Assembly (NCBI GenBank): GCA_009785345.1
Contig: WQWL01000022.1
Location: forward strand, 1-32,559
DNA length: 32,559 nucleotides
Reading direction: 5' to 3'
From: Oscillospiraceae bacterium
GTDB taxonomy: Bacteria; Bacillota; Clostridia; Oscillospirales; Oscillospiraceae
Shown: positions 4,811 to 31,512 of the stretch, one piece after another
Position numbering within the stretch: position 1 is the first letter of the stretch
How the letters are laid out: each line of letters starts with the position of its first letter
Notes under the pieces: generated by a model
Database searches by the model: none
Told to the model about the DNA's origin: nothing
What the model saw: only the letters and a program-made list of their open reading frames with translations
Program-made: the position numbers and the translations under genes

Positions 4811-7800
4811 ATGGGATTTACACACTTGCATGTTCATAGTGAATATAGCCTGCTTGACGGTGCGTGCAGAATACGTGATTTAGTTGCACGAGTGAATGAA
4901 CTCGGGCAAAAAAGCATTGCGATAACAGACCATGGTGTTATGTATGGTGTTGTCGCATTTTATAAAGAAGCAATAAAAGCCGGAATCAAACCGATTATCG
5001 GCTGTGAAGTCTATGTTGCAGCGAGAACACGCTTTGATACGGACTACGAAATTGACTCAAATCGCCATCACTTAACACTGTTATGTAAAAATGAAAAAGG
5101 GTATAAGAACCTCTGTCTTTTAGTCAGTGCATCTTTTACAGAGGGTTTTTATATTAAACCTCGCGTTGACATGGAGCTTCTCCGTGCACACAGCGAGGGT
5201 CTCATTGCGTTATCCGGCTGCCTTGGTGGTGAGATTCCAAAGCTGCTTATGGATAACAAATATGAAGAGGCGAAAGCAAAAGCTCTGGAGTTAAGAGATG
5301 TCTTTGGGGATGGCTCGTTTTATTTAGAAATGCAAAATCATGGACTTACCGAGCAACCCGATGTAAACAGAGGGCTGGTTAAAATACATAGAGAAACAAA
5401 CATCCCCCTTGTTGCGACAAATGATGTGCATTATATTAATCGCAGTGACGCTGAAATTCAAGATGTGCTCATGTGCATCCAAACAGGAAAATCCATCGAA
5501 GATGCGGATAGAATGCGTTTTGAATCACAGGAGCTATTCTTAAAGTCTGAAGAAGAAATGCGAGCTGTCTTTCCTGACTACCCCGAAGCATGCGACAATA
5601 CAGAGAAAATTGCTGAAATGTGCAACTTTGACTTTGATTTCTCTGAATACCATATGCCAGAGTTTACACTGCCGGACGGTAGAGATAATGCAGGTGAGTA
5701 TCTACGCGAGCTTTGTTTGATAGGGGCGAAAAAACTCTATGGTGAAGAAAGGCAAGATGTGATAAAGCGGCTTGATTATGAGCTGAATATGATATCTGAC
5801 ATGGGGTTTAACGATTATTTTCTCATAGTTGCAGATTTTATCGAATATGCAAAAAAAAGCGCAATCCCCGTTGGACCGGGACGCGGCAGTGGTGCAGGCA
5901 GTATTGTTGCATATTGCCTTGGAATTACGGCAGTTGACCCATTAAAATACAACACATATTTTGAGCGCTTTTTGAACCCTGAGCGCATAAGCATGCCTGA
6001 TTTCGACATTGATTTTTGTGAGAGAAGGCGCAGTGAAGTAATCGAGTATGTCAAAGGAAAATATGGTGTGGACAGGGTTGCACAAATAGTTACGTTTAAC
6101 ACACTAAAAGCAAAAAATGCAGTGAGAAGCGTATCGAAAGTTCTTGCTCTGACCTTCCAAGAAGAAAATGAACTGGCAAAAGAAATACCAAATATACTGA
6201 ATATTACTATTGCAGAAGCACTCAAAACATCGAGCAACATGCGTTCAATGTATGAGAATGATTCGCGGGTGAAGCGTGTGATCGATACTGCAATGGCACT
6301 TGAAGATATGCCGAAAGATTCCGGCACACATGCGGCGGGTGTTGTTGTAACGAAAATGCCTGTGTGCGAATACGTGCCACTGACGCTATCAAAGAAAGAC
6401 AACTCAATAGCAACACAATATTCAATGAATACCCTTGAAGAGCTGGGTCTTTTGAAAATGGACTTTCTCGGCTTGCGTAATCTCACGGTTATTGCAGATG
6501 CGGTGAAGCAAATCCAAAAAGCAGAACCTGACTTTACGATTGAAAGCATCCCTGACGATGATGCATCCACATATGAGATGCTATCAAAAGGAAGTACATC
6601 AGGTGTGTTCCAACTGGAATCCCAGGGCATGACAAATGTTTGTGTCGGGCTGGGTCCGAAAAGTATTGAGGATATAACTGCGATTATTGCACTATATCGT
6701 CCAGGACCGATGGAATCCATACCACGCTTCTTAGAAAGCAGCAATAATCCAAAGAAAATTACATATAAACATCCAATGCTTGAGTCAATTCTTTCTGTTA
6801 CATACGGCTGTATAGTCTATCAGGAACAGGTGCTGGAGATATTGAGGAAGCTGGGTGGATTCTCTTTGGGGCAGGCGGATATGATACGTCGTGCAATGTC
6901 AAAAAAAACAGCTGATGTTATTAACCGCGAGAAAAAAACATTCATAGACGGAGACCCTGAACGCAATATTTGTGGAGCGGTAAAAAATGGAGTTCCAAAA
7001 GAGATTGCGGCAAGTATTTATGATGAAATATTTGCATTTGCCAACTATGCGTTTAATAAAAGTCACGCTGTAGCGTATGCAATCATATCTTATCAAACGG
7101 CATACTTGAAATGCCACTATCCAGAAATCTATATGGCTGCGCTCCTATCATCAATTTTAGGTTCTCCTGAAAAGGTGGCAGAGTATACCCATGAATGTCG
7201 AAACTTGGGTATTGCGCTTTTACCACCGAATATAAACGAATCTGATGCGATGTTTACTGTTTCGGGTGATAATCTGCGATATGGTCTCGCTGCAGTTAAG
7301 AATATCGGTCGTGGCTTTATACAAAATGTGGTTAACAACCGTAATGAAAATGGTCTCTTTAAAAGTTTTGATGATTTTTGTAAACGAATGTATGGCGGAG
7401 ATTTGAACCGTCGTGCACTTGAGAGCTTGATAAAATGCGGATGCTTCGATGGACTGGGTGCGAACAGAAAACAACTAATGATGATTTGTCAAACAGTGAT
7501 AGATGGAGTAGCAGACCACAATCGTCGAAATGTAGAGGGACAAATTGATTTGTTCGGGATGTCGGGTGATCTAGGGGAGGAGGATAATCTAAATTACGGA
7601 GGGATGGAGCTTCCTGATGTTGAGGAGTACAAAAAAGGTGAACTGACAAGAATGGAGCGCGCTGTAACCGGATTGTATTTGTCCGGACATCCCATGGATG
7701 ATTATAGGGATGCAGTGAAGCGCTTAGATGTTGTGAATATTGGGAATATATTTGCGGATTTTTCTCGTGAGGAAGGTAGTGCAGTGTTTAGGGACAACCA

Positions 7801-11973: not shown

Positions 11974-11995
11974 ATTCTGCGACTTCGCGCAGAAT
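11974..11995. repeat. Short intergenic hairpin (ATTCTGCG type)
   Basis: ATTCTGCG (11974-11981) and CGCAGAAT (11988-11995) form a perfect 8-bp stem with a 6-base loop. It directly abuts the block at 11995-12016 that recurs at 19021-19042. It is upstream of the TTG-started ASKHA gene and is probably part of a dispersed repeat. A regulatory role in the leader is possible. Confidence 0.5.
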
Positions 11996-12016
11996 GACGT
12001 TAGTTTTCATAGACTA
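11995..12016 (-). repeat. Dispersed repeat block, copy 1
   Basis: Read on the minus strand, these 22 bases (starting TAGTCTATGAAAACTAA) are identical to 19021-19042 on the plus strand. Similarity extends a few bases further with mismatches. Both copies are intergenic. Confidence 0.6.
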
Positions 12017-12027
12017 GTTGGCATTAC

Positions 12028-12055
12028 TCCCCTAACCCCTAAGCCCTAGCCCCTA
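12028..12055 (-). repeat. Heptamer TAGGGNN tract, copy 1, starting on the miaB stop codon
   Basis: On the minus strand the sequence is four exact 7-base units: TAGGGGC, TAGGGCT, TAGGGGT and TAGGGGA. The first TAG is the miaB stop codon (12053-12055). A second tract with the same unit lies at 31482-31512 and also begins on a stop codon. Confidence 0.75.
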
Positions 12056-13462
12056 GGAATCGCCGAATAGTGACCAGTTGTTGCAATGAGATATCTTAGC
12101 CTCAACGAAATTGCCAACTAATGACGGCTCACCGGTTAAATGCACTAATCTTCCGCCATTTGTGCGAGCCTTTAGCGGATACTCTGCATCTTTTGCCTCC
12201 CCGTCAACCAAAACACGAACGACTTCACCAATATACTCTTCGTGCTTTCTTTCAGAAATCTCATTTTGTAAGTCTACAAGCTTTTGAAACCTAACTTGCT
12301 TCTCTTCTCTGGATACATCGTCATGCAGTTTCGCCGCTGCTGTGCCGGGGCGCTTTGAGTATAGGAACGTAAACATCGCCTCGAATTGCGCTTTCTCCAC
12401 AAGCTCTAACGTATCATTAAACTCTTCTTCAGTCTCACCCGGATACCCTACAATTACGTCACTCGTTATTACAATATCAGGTATAAACTCACGTGCAATA
12501 GCGATTTTCTCAAGATATTCTTCTTGTGTATAGCCACGATTCATGAGTTTCAAAATTCGGTCATTGCCCGCTTGAAAGGGTAGATGTATATGATGAGCAA
12601 CCTTTTCACATTCTGACATGGCTTTGAATAGCTCTCTTGATGCATCTTTCGGATGGCTTGTCATGAAGCGAATCAGAAAATCTCCTTCAATTTCATTAAT
12701 TTGACGCAATAGGTTTGCAAAATCATTCTCTCCTCCGGCAAAGGAGTTAACGTTTTGCCCAAGTAAGGTAATATCCTTATATCCTAAGGCAACAAGAGAA
12801 CATGCTTCTTCCAGTATTGCATCGACACTGCGGCTTCGCTCTCTGCCTCGCACATATGGAACAATGCAGTATGAACAGAAATTATTACAACCATTCATGA
12901 TTGTAAGCCACGCCTTGACTGTGCCATCTCTATGGGTTGGCAACCCCTCGGCAATCATTCCTTCATCACTATCTGATTCAAATATGCGCTTCTTCTCAAT
13001 TAGCGCTCTCAAAAGCAACTCAGGAAACTTCCATATTTTGCTTGGCGGAAATATAAGACCTACATGTTTGTATGATTGCTCAATCTTCTCAACAGACTCA
13101 GGCACTGCTGCAAGGCAACCGCAAAACACCACAAGCTGGTTTGGATTTGCCTTCTTTGTGTGAGTAAGCGCGCCAATATTGCCCAACACGCGGTTCTCAG
13201 CATTTTCACGTATTGCGCAAGTGTTTACAATGGCAACATCTGCTTCATTCTCATCATAGGTTATATCATAGCCCATTTCTACAAGCATACCACGAAGCTT
13301 CTCGCTATCCGCCTCATTTTGCTGACAACCATAAGTATCCACATAAGCCTGCGGCTTCTCCTGCCTGGTCTCTGATACCTCACGCACTCTATCCATAATT
13401 AACCGCTGCTGTTGCAGATCATTCTCATGCACTTGAACATTACTATCTTCTCTTTTACTCAT
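12053..13462 (-). CDS. miaB: tRNA-2-methylthio-N6-dimethylallyladenosine synthase MiaB
   Basis: Radical SAM methylthiotransferase that converts i6A37 to ms2i6A37 in tRNA, acting after MiaA (also in this window). The protein is 469 aa. The N-terminal UPF0004 domain carries its three cluster cysteines in DTYGCQQNEAD, NTCAIRENAE and FCGCLA. The radical SAM motif is GCNNFCSYCIVPYVRGRE (C-x3-C-x2-C). A TRAM domain forms the C-terminus. The ATG at 13462 is preferred because AGGAGGT lies just upstream and the UPF0004 domain follows normally. A longer in-frame start at 13606 lies inside an inverted-repeat element and would encode nonsense sequence. About 70 residues precede the UPF0004 domain, longer than E. 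coli MiaB but common in Clostridia. The stop codon is the first base triplet of a heptamer repeat. Confidence 0.94.
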   Translation of the reverse strand: MSKREDSNVQVHENDLQQQRLIMDRVREVSETRQEKPQAYVDTYGCQQNEADSEKLRGMLVEMGYDITYDENEADVAIVNTCAIRENAENRVLGNIGALTHTKKANPNQLVVFCGCLAAVPESVEKIEQSYKHVGLIFPPSKIWKFPELLLRALIEKKRIFESDSDEGMIAEGLPTHRDGTVKAWLTIMNGCNNFCSYCIVPYVRGRERSRSVDAILEEACSLVALGYKDITLLGQNVNSFAGGENDFANLLRQINEIEGDFLIRFMTSHPKDASRELFKAMSECEKVAHHIHLPFQAGNDRILKLMNRGYTQEEYLEKIAIAREFIPDIVITSDVIVGYPGETEEEFNDTLELVEKAQFEAMFTFLYSKRPGTAAAKLHDDVSREEKQVRFQKLVDLQNEISERKHEEYIGEVVRVLVDGEAKDAEYPLKARTNGGRLVHLTGEPSLVGNFVEAKISHCNNWSLFGDS

Positions 13463-13478
13463 ACTACCTCCTACACTA

Positions 13479-13658
13479 GCAGTTAACACTAATGTGATTT
13501 TGCATTTATCTAGTGGAGCAAAATTAGCGATTGTTGATGAAATTTCAGATAAGGGCTTTGCACTGTCTGAGCGAAGCGAGTTTGCAAAGCCCCTGAAATG
13601 AGCCATACAATCGCTTTTTGCGGAACTTTAAATGCAAAATCACATTAGTGTTAACTGC
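13479..13658. mobile_element. 180-bp MITE-like element with 30-bp perfect inverted repeats
   Basis: Bases 13479-13508 and 13629-13658 are exact reverse complements over 30 bases. Inside them further stems stack in register: 13518-13523 with 13616-13621, 13526-13534 with 13607-13615, 13542-13548 with 13593-13599, and 13553-13562 with 13583-13592. About 62 bp can pair around a 20-base loop. It encodes no plausible protein. TTAA sits symmetrically near both ends (13483-13486 and 13651-13654) and could be a target duplication, but it is also part of the palindrome. It lies in the miaB leader, 17 bases before the miaB start. It may be a non-autonomous transposable element or a large structured RNA. 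It also accounts for most of the ~300-base gap between the two genes. Confidence 0.72.
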
Positions 13659-13702
13659 GCACCCATTCTACCATTATCACGTGGAAAAAACAATGGTAAC
13701 AC

Positions 13703-13731
13703 TTGATTATAGAGTGTAAACATGGTAGTAT
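13703..13731 (+). promoter_or_regulatory. Candidate promoter for the alanine-racemase-like gene
   Basis: TTGATT (13703-13708) is 17 bases from TAGTAT (13726-13731), each a 4/6 match to the sigma-A boxes at ideal spacing. Transcription would begin near 13738, which fits translation from the ATG at 13770 and excludes the longer in-frame start at 13722. Confidence 0.4.
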
Positions 13732-13769
13732 TGAGTGTCATTGCAAACTTGAGAGGTGGGAATGTTTTA

Positions 13770-14837
13770 ATGAAAAACTTAATCATTGATTTGAGGGTGG
13801 TTAGAAACAACCTGCGAGCAATCAAAGACCAAGCTGAAGGCGTACACGTATTTGCCGACCTAAGTGCCAACGCCGGAGGAATGGGGCTGCTTAAAGTTGC
13901 AATGTTTTTACGTGATGAAGGAATCCGCAATTTCGTAGTGTCCGATCCAAGCGACGCAAAACTCCTTAGGCAAAACAATTTTACCAAAGAACGAATAATG
14001 ATGTTACGCAGTACAGCAGACCCTAATGAAATTTCTGAAATGCTGTCATATGGAGTAATCTGCACAGCCGGCTCATATGACGCTGCAGTTGCAATCAATG
14101 GCATTGCAGAATCGCAAAACATGGTTGCAGACATTCAGGTCATGATTGACACAGGACTCGGATGTTATGGTTTCCAACCATCAGAACTCGATAAGGTTGC
14201 AGCAATTTATAAATATATGTCGAGCCTTAATGTAATAGGAACGTTTACAACACTTGCGTCATCTTGGCGTAGCAAAAAGAAAACAACTGCTCAATTAGAT
14301 AAATTCAATGAAGCACTGGACAGAATCATCGAAATGGGATTTGAACCCGGAATCGCCCATGCCATTGACTCTGCTGCATTATTTAAATATCCAAACATTG
14401 AGCTTATGGACGCAGTACGTGTCGATACTGCACTTACCGGTAGAATTCCCGGCAAGTCCGTAAACGGATTATCTCGTGTAGGTTACATTGAAGCAGGTCT
14501 CGAAGAAGTGGGCTGGCACCCAAAAGGACACTCAATTGGAGCTGAACGTGGGTTTGTAACAAAAGCTCCAACAAAAATCGCAATACTATCCGTTGGCTAC
14601 TATCATGGTTTCGGGGTAGACAGATATATTGTTGAGAGAAGCCTATTTGATATCGCCAGATGGCGACGTAGAAAGACATTTGTTCGAATAAATGGAAATA
14701 AAGCAAGGGTTCTCGGTAGCGTCGGACTCATGCATACAATGGTAGACGTAACAAACATTGACTGTACGGTCGGTGATATTGCGTTGCTTGATGTTGACCC
14801 TGTAAATGTGAAAGGGCTGCCAATCGTATACAGATAG
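13770..14837 (+). CDS. Alanine racemase-like protein lacking the PLP lysine
   Basis: A 355-aa protein with the two-domain layout of alanine racemase. The N-terminus MKNLIIDLRVVRNNLRAI fits the barrel start, and VMIDTGLGCYGF, AHAIDSAALF (residues 196-205) and AVRVDTALTGRIPG match Alr blocks. At the position of the PLP lysine (VVKANAYGHG in Alr) it reads VFADLSANAGGMG, with Phe28 where Lys is expected. The GYADG block carrying the second catalytic Tyr reads GYYHG (Tyr277). It is therefore probably not a normal racemase. It could be a pseudoenzyme, a regulator or an enzyme with altered chemistry. GAGAGGTGGG precedes the ATG at 13770. A bipartite repeat and mutL follow. Confidence 0.72.
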   Translation: MKNLIIDLRVVRNNLRAIKDQAEGVHVFADLSANAGGMGLLKVAMFLRDEGIRNFVVSDPSDAKLLRQNNFTKERIMMLRSTADPNEISEMLSYGVICTAGSYDAAVAINGIAESQNMVADIQVMIDTGLGCYGFQPSELDKVAAIYKYMSSLNVIGTFTTLASSWRSKKKTTAQLDKFNEALDRIIEMGFEPGIAHAIDSAALFKYPNIELMDAVRVDTALTGRIPGKSVNGLSRVGYIEAGLEEVGWHPKGHSIGAERGFVTKAPTKIAILSVGYYHGFGVDRYIVERSLFDIARWRRRKTFVRINGNKARVLGSVGLMHTMVDVTNIDCTVGDIALLDVDPVNVKGLPIVYR

Positions 14838-19001: not shown

Positions 19002-19020
19002 ATAGTATGGCAATGTCAAA

Positions 19021-19042
19021 TAGTCTATGAAAACTAACGTCA
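19021..19042 (+). repeat. Dispersed repeat block, copy 2
   Basis: Identical over 22 bases to 11995-12016 in the opposite orientation. It lies in the 103-base gap before yggS. A shorter direct repeat (GTCAAATAG followed four bases later by ATGAAAA-like sequence) is also seen at 19015 and 19039. Confidence 0.6.
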
Positions 19043-31484: not shown

Positions 31485-31512
31485 GGGTTAGGGTCTAGGG
31501 CTTAGGGGTTAG
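31482..31512 (+). repeat. Heptamer TAGGGNN tract, copy 2, starting on the nitroreductase stop codon
   Basis: Four exact 7-base units TAGGGGT, TAGGGTC, TAGGGCT and TAGGGGT, then TAG. The first TAG (31482-31484) is the stop codon of the SagB-type gene. It is the same unit as 12028-12055 and is placed the same way relative to the gene. Confidence 0.75.

Follow-up and report, generated by a model that had tools for sequence, protein, structure and literature searches.

The long palindrome just upstream of miaB in the window (the whole stretch of 32,559 nucleotides that we analyzed, contig WQWL01000022.1 of the Oscillospiraceae bacterium assembly GCA_009785345.1) is one copy of an element that is repeated, dispersed, and geneless, with an asymmetric core whose stems covary and with outer arms that change faster than the core while keeping their pairing. 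It fails two classical tests for a MITE, conserved ends and target duplication. The reading that we consider probable is that it is a non-autonomous, MITE-like foldback element, that it has spread within genomes, and that the folded strand of its core is recognized. What defines a classical miniature element is its conserved ends; this family looks like the opposite case, with a conserved center and free ends. It offers dozens of natural replicates of hairpin arms that change fast yet stay matched, and therefore could be used to test whether perfect palindromes are kept up by selection on a folded strand or by template switching. It could also be used to test which enzymes move such hairpins.

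The preliminary description of this DNA reported perfect 30-bp ends, and this is what we observe: 13479-13508 and 13629-13658 are complementary at 30 of 30 nucleotides, 120 nucleotides apart, and form the top entry among the inverted repeats of the window. When 13465-13675 was folded as single-stranded DNA, its energy was -59.4 kcal/mol versus -20.4 (sd 3.1) in 200 shuffles, with a z of -12.5 and none of the 200 shuffles as good, which rules out a chance palindrome. The inner stems, described earlier as stacking in register, do so but are broken by internal loops, and the minimum free energy structure has 72 pairs, compared with the about 62 paired bases given earlier. The parts of the element are as follows.

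13479..13658, + strand (the orientation of covariance model R1): whole foldback element, from the fold, the inverted repeat, and R1
13479..13508, + strand: left outer arm, the most variable portion between copies
13511..13630, + strand: core, conserved and asymmetric, with limits set by hand (R1 match 13511-13631)
13526..13538, + strand: core helix 1, left side, pairing with 13602-13615
13542..13548, + strand: core helix 2, left side, pairing with 13593-13599
13553..13556, + strand: core helix 3, left side, pairing with 13589-13592
13557..13588, + strand: apical region, well conserved, with GCGAAGC at 13571-13577
13589..13592, + strand: core helix 3, right side
13593..13599, + strand: core helix 2, right side
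13602..13615, + strand: core helix 1, right side
13629..13658, + strand: right outer arm, matching the left arm at every base in inverted orientation

A 26-mer of the 30-bp end, searched with up to three mismatches, found just the two arms of this copy in its own genome, so it is the center and not the arm that is the repeat. BLAST with the center gave matches in 8 of 60 genomes (its own included), all in one genus of the 42. The genome itself holds three copies, which rules out a single-copy palindrome: the one beside miaB, one on contig C59 (91% identical over the core), and one on C17 (80% over part of the core); a fourth row in that search is the palindrome matched to itself and is not a copy. 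R1, built from 21 cores, gave 73 matches in 11 of the 19 draft genomes of the genus, with 1 to 17 copies per genome, and matched its own genome only among 150 genomes of the family, where the filters were stricter and weak matches may be lost. We cut out, oriented, and analyzed 56 of these matches and set aside 17, namely 13 that cover the apex alone (4 in G016 and 9 in G018), three at contig ends (C13, C304, and C57 of G015), and one partial match (C11 of G006). When GTDB species genomes were scanned with a pattern, 11 stretches came back, with hosts named as Oscillospiraceae MAGs; of these stretches, six (L055, L056, L057, L060, L061, and L065, at 107-127 bits) belong to the family, and among the other five L063 shares its apex and architecture. 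Going by isolate names, we read the hosts as coming from termite guts. Carriage by a phage or plasmid was rejected, since plasmids, phages, and viral contigs (the last searched with two patterns) gave no match. A literature search, with most subscription papers beyond its reach, found no description of the element.

The same anatomy recurs across the copies. Inverted flanks with a score of at least 12 surround the core in 47 of 56 copies versus 3 of 2536 mismatched cross-genome flank pairs, and the arms are 17-42 bp long. Of the nine copies that miss this score, G006h reaches 11, two are situated at contig ends, G007e has a hairpin insertion in its left side, and G003b, G013n, and G015o appear to be degraded or rearranged. 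In G013o and G013p a long loop insertion had misplaced the ends, and both pass after end correction (scores of 22 and 16). Under a milder penalty, 48 of the 56 copies score at least 11, with a median arm length of 27. Ten of these 48 have perfect arms, and the earlier claim that perfect ends imply recent insertion is thus only partly right. The core between the arms is asymmetric; it includes unpaired stretches that are conserved, and its apex reads GAGC-GAA-GCGAG. The element is about 180-210 bp in size, longer where the apical loop is extended, and many G013 copies have extra palindromic extensions in the apex. The heptamer GCGAAGC is an unusually stable DNA mini-hairpin.

Covariation in the core supports one fold. 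With kinship ignored, the 21 cores show 82 double-changed cells versus 19.9 in shuffles, and 95.9% of cells pair, as against 35-45% when the pairing is slid. G-U pairs are scarce in the core helices (9 cells outside pair 61-74), which fits copying at the DNA level as well as selection on RNA.

The arms behave as the fast-changing, pairing-constrained portion of the element. Our first idea was that they derive from host flanks, and we keep it as a rival, now weakened by homologous arms within the same genome: the core would insert, and one flank would be copied in inverted form by a template switch, making a new palindrome at each site. The absence of conserved ends and of a clear target duplication speaks for it, as do copies whose cores are about 90% alike while their arms are far less so (50% for G000a and G000b, 62% for G005a and G005b). 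Against it, arms exceed outer flanks in identity in G013 (10 of 16 copies: arms 64-66%, core 92-98%, outer flanks 36-42%), in G015 (12 of 14 copies: 47-48%, 77-80%, and 36-38%), and in G007 (4 of 8 copies: 89%, 95-98%, and 36-37%), and a G015 subfamily has inner and outer arm ends in common with a variable middle between them. In G006 (7 of 8 copies) the identity of the arms barely exceeds that of the outer flanks. On balance we think that host-sequence arms are unlikely. Arms are shared among some G013 copies and, at 89%, among the four G007 copies, and therefore a change of arms is not needed for each move.

How the arms change bears on what keeps them paired. Among 106 same-genome pairs with a core identity of at least 85%, we counted 779 two-sided arm changes, 666 of them from one Watson-Crick pair to another, and 310 one-sided changes, and in the 14 close pairs (arms at least 88% alike) there were 37 one-sided and 5 two-sided changes; the pairs overlap, and these counts are therefore not independent. 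On the strand of the element, arm mismatches comprise 61 G.T, 16 A.C, and 28 others (p 2e-7, kinship ignored). The excess of G.T over A.C persists at 40 to 16 with one count per genome and position (p 0.002) and at 28 to 6, with 14 ties, when scored by element. It is seen in each copy-rich genome (12:2 in G006, 10:2 in G007, 19:6 in G013, and 18:5 in G015), and the copy-poor genomes give 1:0 in G005 and in G016 and, in the opposite direction, 0:1 in G004. The G.T pairs are uneven between the two sides, with G on the left in 42 and T on the left in 19. Selection on a single folded strand predicts such an excess, which suggests that the fold is important in single-stranded form, and part of the excess could be mutational bias. 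A strand bias linked to genes is less likely, given that the copies lie in mixed orientation to genes.

We can put these observations together in a mechanism. The element would spread by moving or being copied within host genomes, and the folded single strand of the core, rather than the ends, would be recognized by a candidate mobilizing enzyme. The arms would then have only to pair, so that their sequence could drift. One-sided changes, mostly to G.T, would come first, and the other side would be matched later, either through a compensatory mutation or through a replication template switch from one arm to the other. Template switching in replication is, in the accessible part of a published account (PMC8794818), a way to mirror changes between the sides of a stem.

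The preliminary description had proposed a MITE with a possible TTAA target, mobilized by a transposase with matching ends. Part of this holds: copies are dispersed beside different genes, element presence is patchy, and contexts differ between copies, with neighbor orientations (from mechanical ORFs) of 11, 11, 10, and 8 for the four combinations and one neighbor uncalled in 16 copies. Our results do not support the target or the transposase. Across 48 copies there is no clear target duplication: direct repeats of at least 5 flank 2 of 48 (4.2%) versus 1.7% of control pairs, and the mean flanking direct repeat is 1.52 versus 1.42 in controls, with arm ends so fuzzy that duplications of 2-3 bp would be missed. 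End profiles of the same 48 copies give no conserved end sequence, arms are shared only within some genomes rather than forming conserved terminal inverted repeats, and the 14 bases to each side of the arms have nothing in common across copies. No transposase with matching ends was seen in the 19 draft genomes.

A MITE of the usual sort, belonging to a DDE insertion sequence that is missing from these genomes or assemblies and having terminal repeats that have decayed, could have the size, dispersal, and intergenic location that we see, and the genomes are drafts. The lack of conserved bases at the ends and of a clear target duplication argues against it. So does a left-half model, R2, in the 19 drafts: every R2 match lay on an R1 copy or at a contig end, and none was a split copy with the halves of the core apart, though the search scored at most 150 candidates per genome and found only 2 of the 8 G006 copies. 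We regard such a MITE as improbable, about on a par with host-sequence arms or a little below.

Evidence on past movement of the MITE-like foldback element comes from its sites. Clean orthologous empty sites, which the earlier proposal named as support for a MITE, were not found; relatives are about 65-72% identical in miaB, and so the spacers align poorly. A search with G007 flanks likewise gave no clear empty site. One composite context in G013 is more informative. It carries the core in one orientation in copies G013d and G013o and inverted between the same flanks in G013i and G013l, which suggests recombination across the arms. In C2, at about 82.6 kb, an internal deletion has left the arms. 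The context without the element is seen in C33, which may be a true empty site or the product of deletion or excision, and C1, with a shorter junction, looks like a deletion. With no mobilizer, conserved ends, or clear target duplication found, we infer movement from dispersal.

We then asked which enzyme families accompany the element in the drafts. IS200/RAYT and IS110 were rejected as mobilizers, since neither is associated by its presence with the element (Fisher p 1.0 for IS200/RAYT and 0.66 for IS110), and PF01797 (Y1 transposase) had no match in the copy-rich drafts G013, G015, G006, and G007. Reverse transcriptases follow the element weakly: they occur in 6 of 10 element-bearing versus 1 of 9 other drafts (p 0.057), and the rank correlation with copy number is 0.54 (p 0.018), this being one family among three that were tested. 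For this test G016, G018, and G006 counted as 1, 0, and 8 copies, with apex-only and partial matches omitted. Among eight reverse transcriptase matches, the five longest intact frames were scanned; these look mixed, and none passes an NCBIfam cut-off. Those of L210-L213 (in G013, G008, and G006) we take, from a motif, to resemble the reverse transcriptases of diversity-generating retroelements; the three of them that were scanned fall below NCBIfam cut-offs. A bolder form of the favored reading is an "inside-out" mobile hairpin, in which the folded core strand would be recognized, the ends would be free to be any that pair, and the enzyme would be of a kind new to such repeats. We put this forward tentatively, with the somewhat greater frequency of reverse transcriptases in element-bearing genomes as a weak lead to the enzyme.

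The covariation and the one-strand pairing bias could instead mark a family of trans-acting structured RNAs, each copy with its own promoter. However, the stretch of 14 bases flanking the arms shows no common promoter, and copy numbers differ between genomes, from one to seventeen. At the 8 copies scanned with Rfam 15 (that of the window and 7 others), nothing reached a gathering score; the region of the element in the window resembles, as a long hairpin, the microRNA precursor family RF04133 MIR2646, at 34.5 bits versus a gathering score of 245, which is most likely a hairpin artifact, and the only hit over its gathering score, GA-cis in L064, is not located at a copy. We consider trans-acting RNAs quite unlikely.

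The copy in the window sits beside miaB, and the features of that locus are as follows.

12053..13462, - strand: miaB, start inferred from AGGAGG at 13472-13467
13665..13693, - strand: weak candidate miaB promoter (TTGTTT, 17 nt, TAGAAT), found by eye
13770..14837, + strand: alanine-racemase-like gene, the divergent neighbor, start inferred, below the curated alr cut-off

The identity of miaB is given by TIGR01574 (454.6 bits versus a cut-off of 355.3). The gene likely starts with the ATG at 13462 (- strand), which puts the edge of the element 17 bases away, as had been described. The mechanical ORF starts within the element at 13606 and is probably an over-extension; the frame is open upstream over 13463-13606, and therefore automated gene prediction may lengthen MiaB by about 48 residues. 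Apart from this over-extended frame, the element has no coding content. By eye, the TTGTTT/TAGAAT pair has a counterpart in G002 with identical spacing; a promoter scan gave four other sites (shuffle mean 1.3), with this pair not among them, and a terminator scan of 13400-13850 gave no intrinsic terminator. A real promoter at this site would place the transcription start close to the element's right edge, and the hairpin would then lie immediately ahead of the Shine-Dalgarno sequence in the miaB mRNA.

A cis-acting RNA of the miaB leader, the other reading offered in the preliminary description, is consistent with this position between the weak promoter-like site and AGGAGG, with the covariation of the core, and with a pairing that looks favored on one strand. 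It is undercut by the other copies, which adjoin other genes in all orientations, and by the strand, as the miaB mRNA would bear the one opposite to that on which pairing seems favored. Furthermore, of the 16 relatives in which miaB was matched, seven show, by eye, a miaB-alr spacer in synteny, and none of these seven spacers is among the R1 matches, which makes the presence of the copy at miaB probably incidental. A role of the element in miaB control is not supported, and we hold a cis-acting RNA to be the least likely of the readings; the copy probably sits in the miaB leader and adds a hairpin there as a by-product. Two relatives, by eye, have different palindromes near the miaB start (L035 in G016 and L047 in G012), and R1 lists no match at these.

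Returning to the MITE-like foldback element, we find it closest in behavior to bcr1-type repeats, resembling them but with a conserved middle and free ends. Copies of bcr1 have flanking direct repeats, whereas the element has no clear ones. In the accessible parts of their descriptions, bcr1 repeats of the Bacillus cereus group are intergenic and MITE-like, 147-167 bp long, predicted to fold, and often in UTRs (PMC3446304, PMC2267715); the likeness to our element, which is intergenic, MITE-like, and folding, is one of description, and fast-changing arms around a fixed core are absent from those parts. The REP/REPIN systems (GTAG-tagged palindromes with RAYT transposases) are likewise short dispersed palindromes, and an E. 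coli RAYT recognizes single-stranded REP DNA, according to the part of the report available (PMC3733652). As far as these partial sources go, REPs are 20-40 bp with a GTAG end, whereas the element is 180 bp, and its end profiles (48 copies) have no GTAG/CGTC tag at one end. Unlike in REP/RAYT systems, Y1 transposase genes do not track its copy number. The attC sites of integrons are single-strand hairpins with variable stems and conserved unpaired bases, and the element is like them in hairpin form, with no attC core-site motif recognized in it by eye.

The apical region at 13557..13588 is common to other repeats in G016, G018, and a Lachnospiraceae MAG (L063). In L063 the apex motif stands on another stem at 4856-4899, with long matching arms, and in G016 and G018 it occurs in other repeats (L129-L135), which perhaps form a wider family. 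Further repeats occur in some genomes. In G013, a second palindromic repeat (GGTCATAAAATCATTCC...GGAATGATTTTTATG, e.g., L149-L170) is the sole basis of 37 of the 46 flank-context matches, and in G007 another abundant repeat (CACCCGCC...AAAGAGGGCTT, L187-L206) lies beside element copies and makes up most of the 48 flank-search matches. Within the window, a 31-bp repeat in inverted orientation (11995-12025 and 19012-19042, 94% complementary), near the end of miaB and before a YggS-like gene, is perhaps another dispersed small repeat. A TAGGG-rich motif also has inverted copies at 12032-12055 and 31489-31512, and similar TAGGG/GTAGGG runs flank some of the G007 copies.
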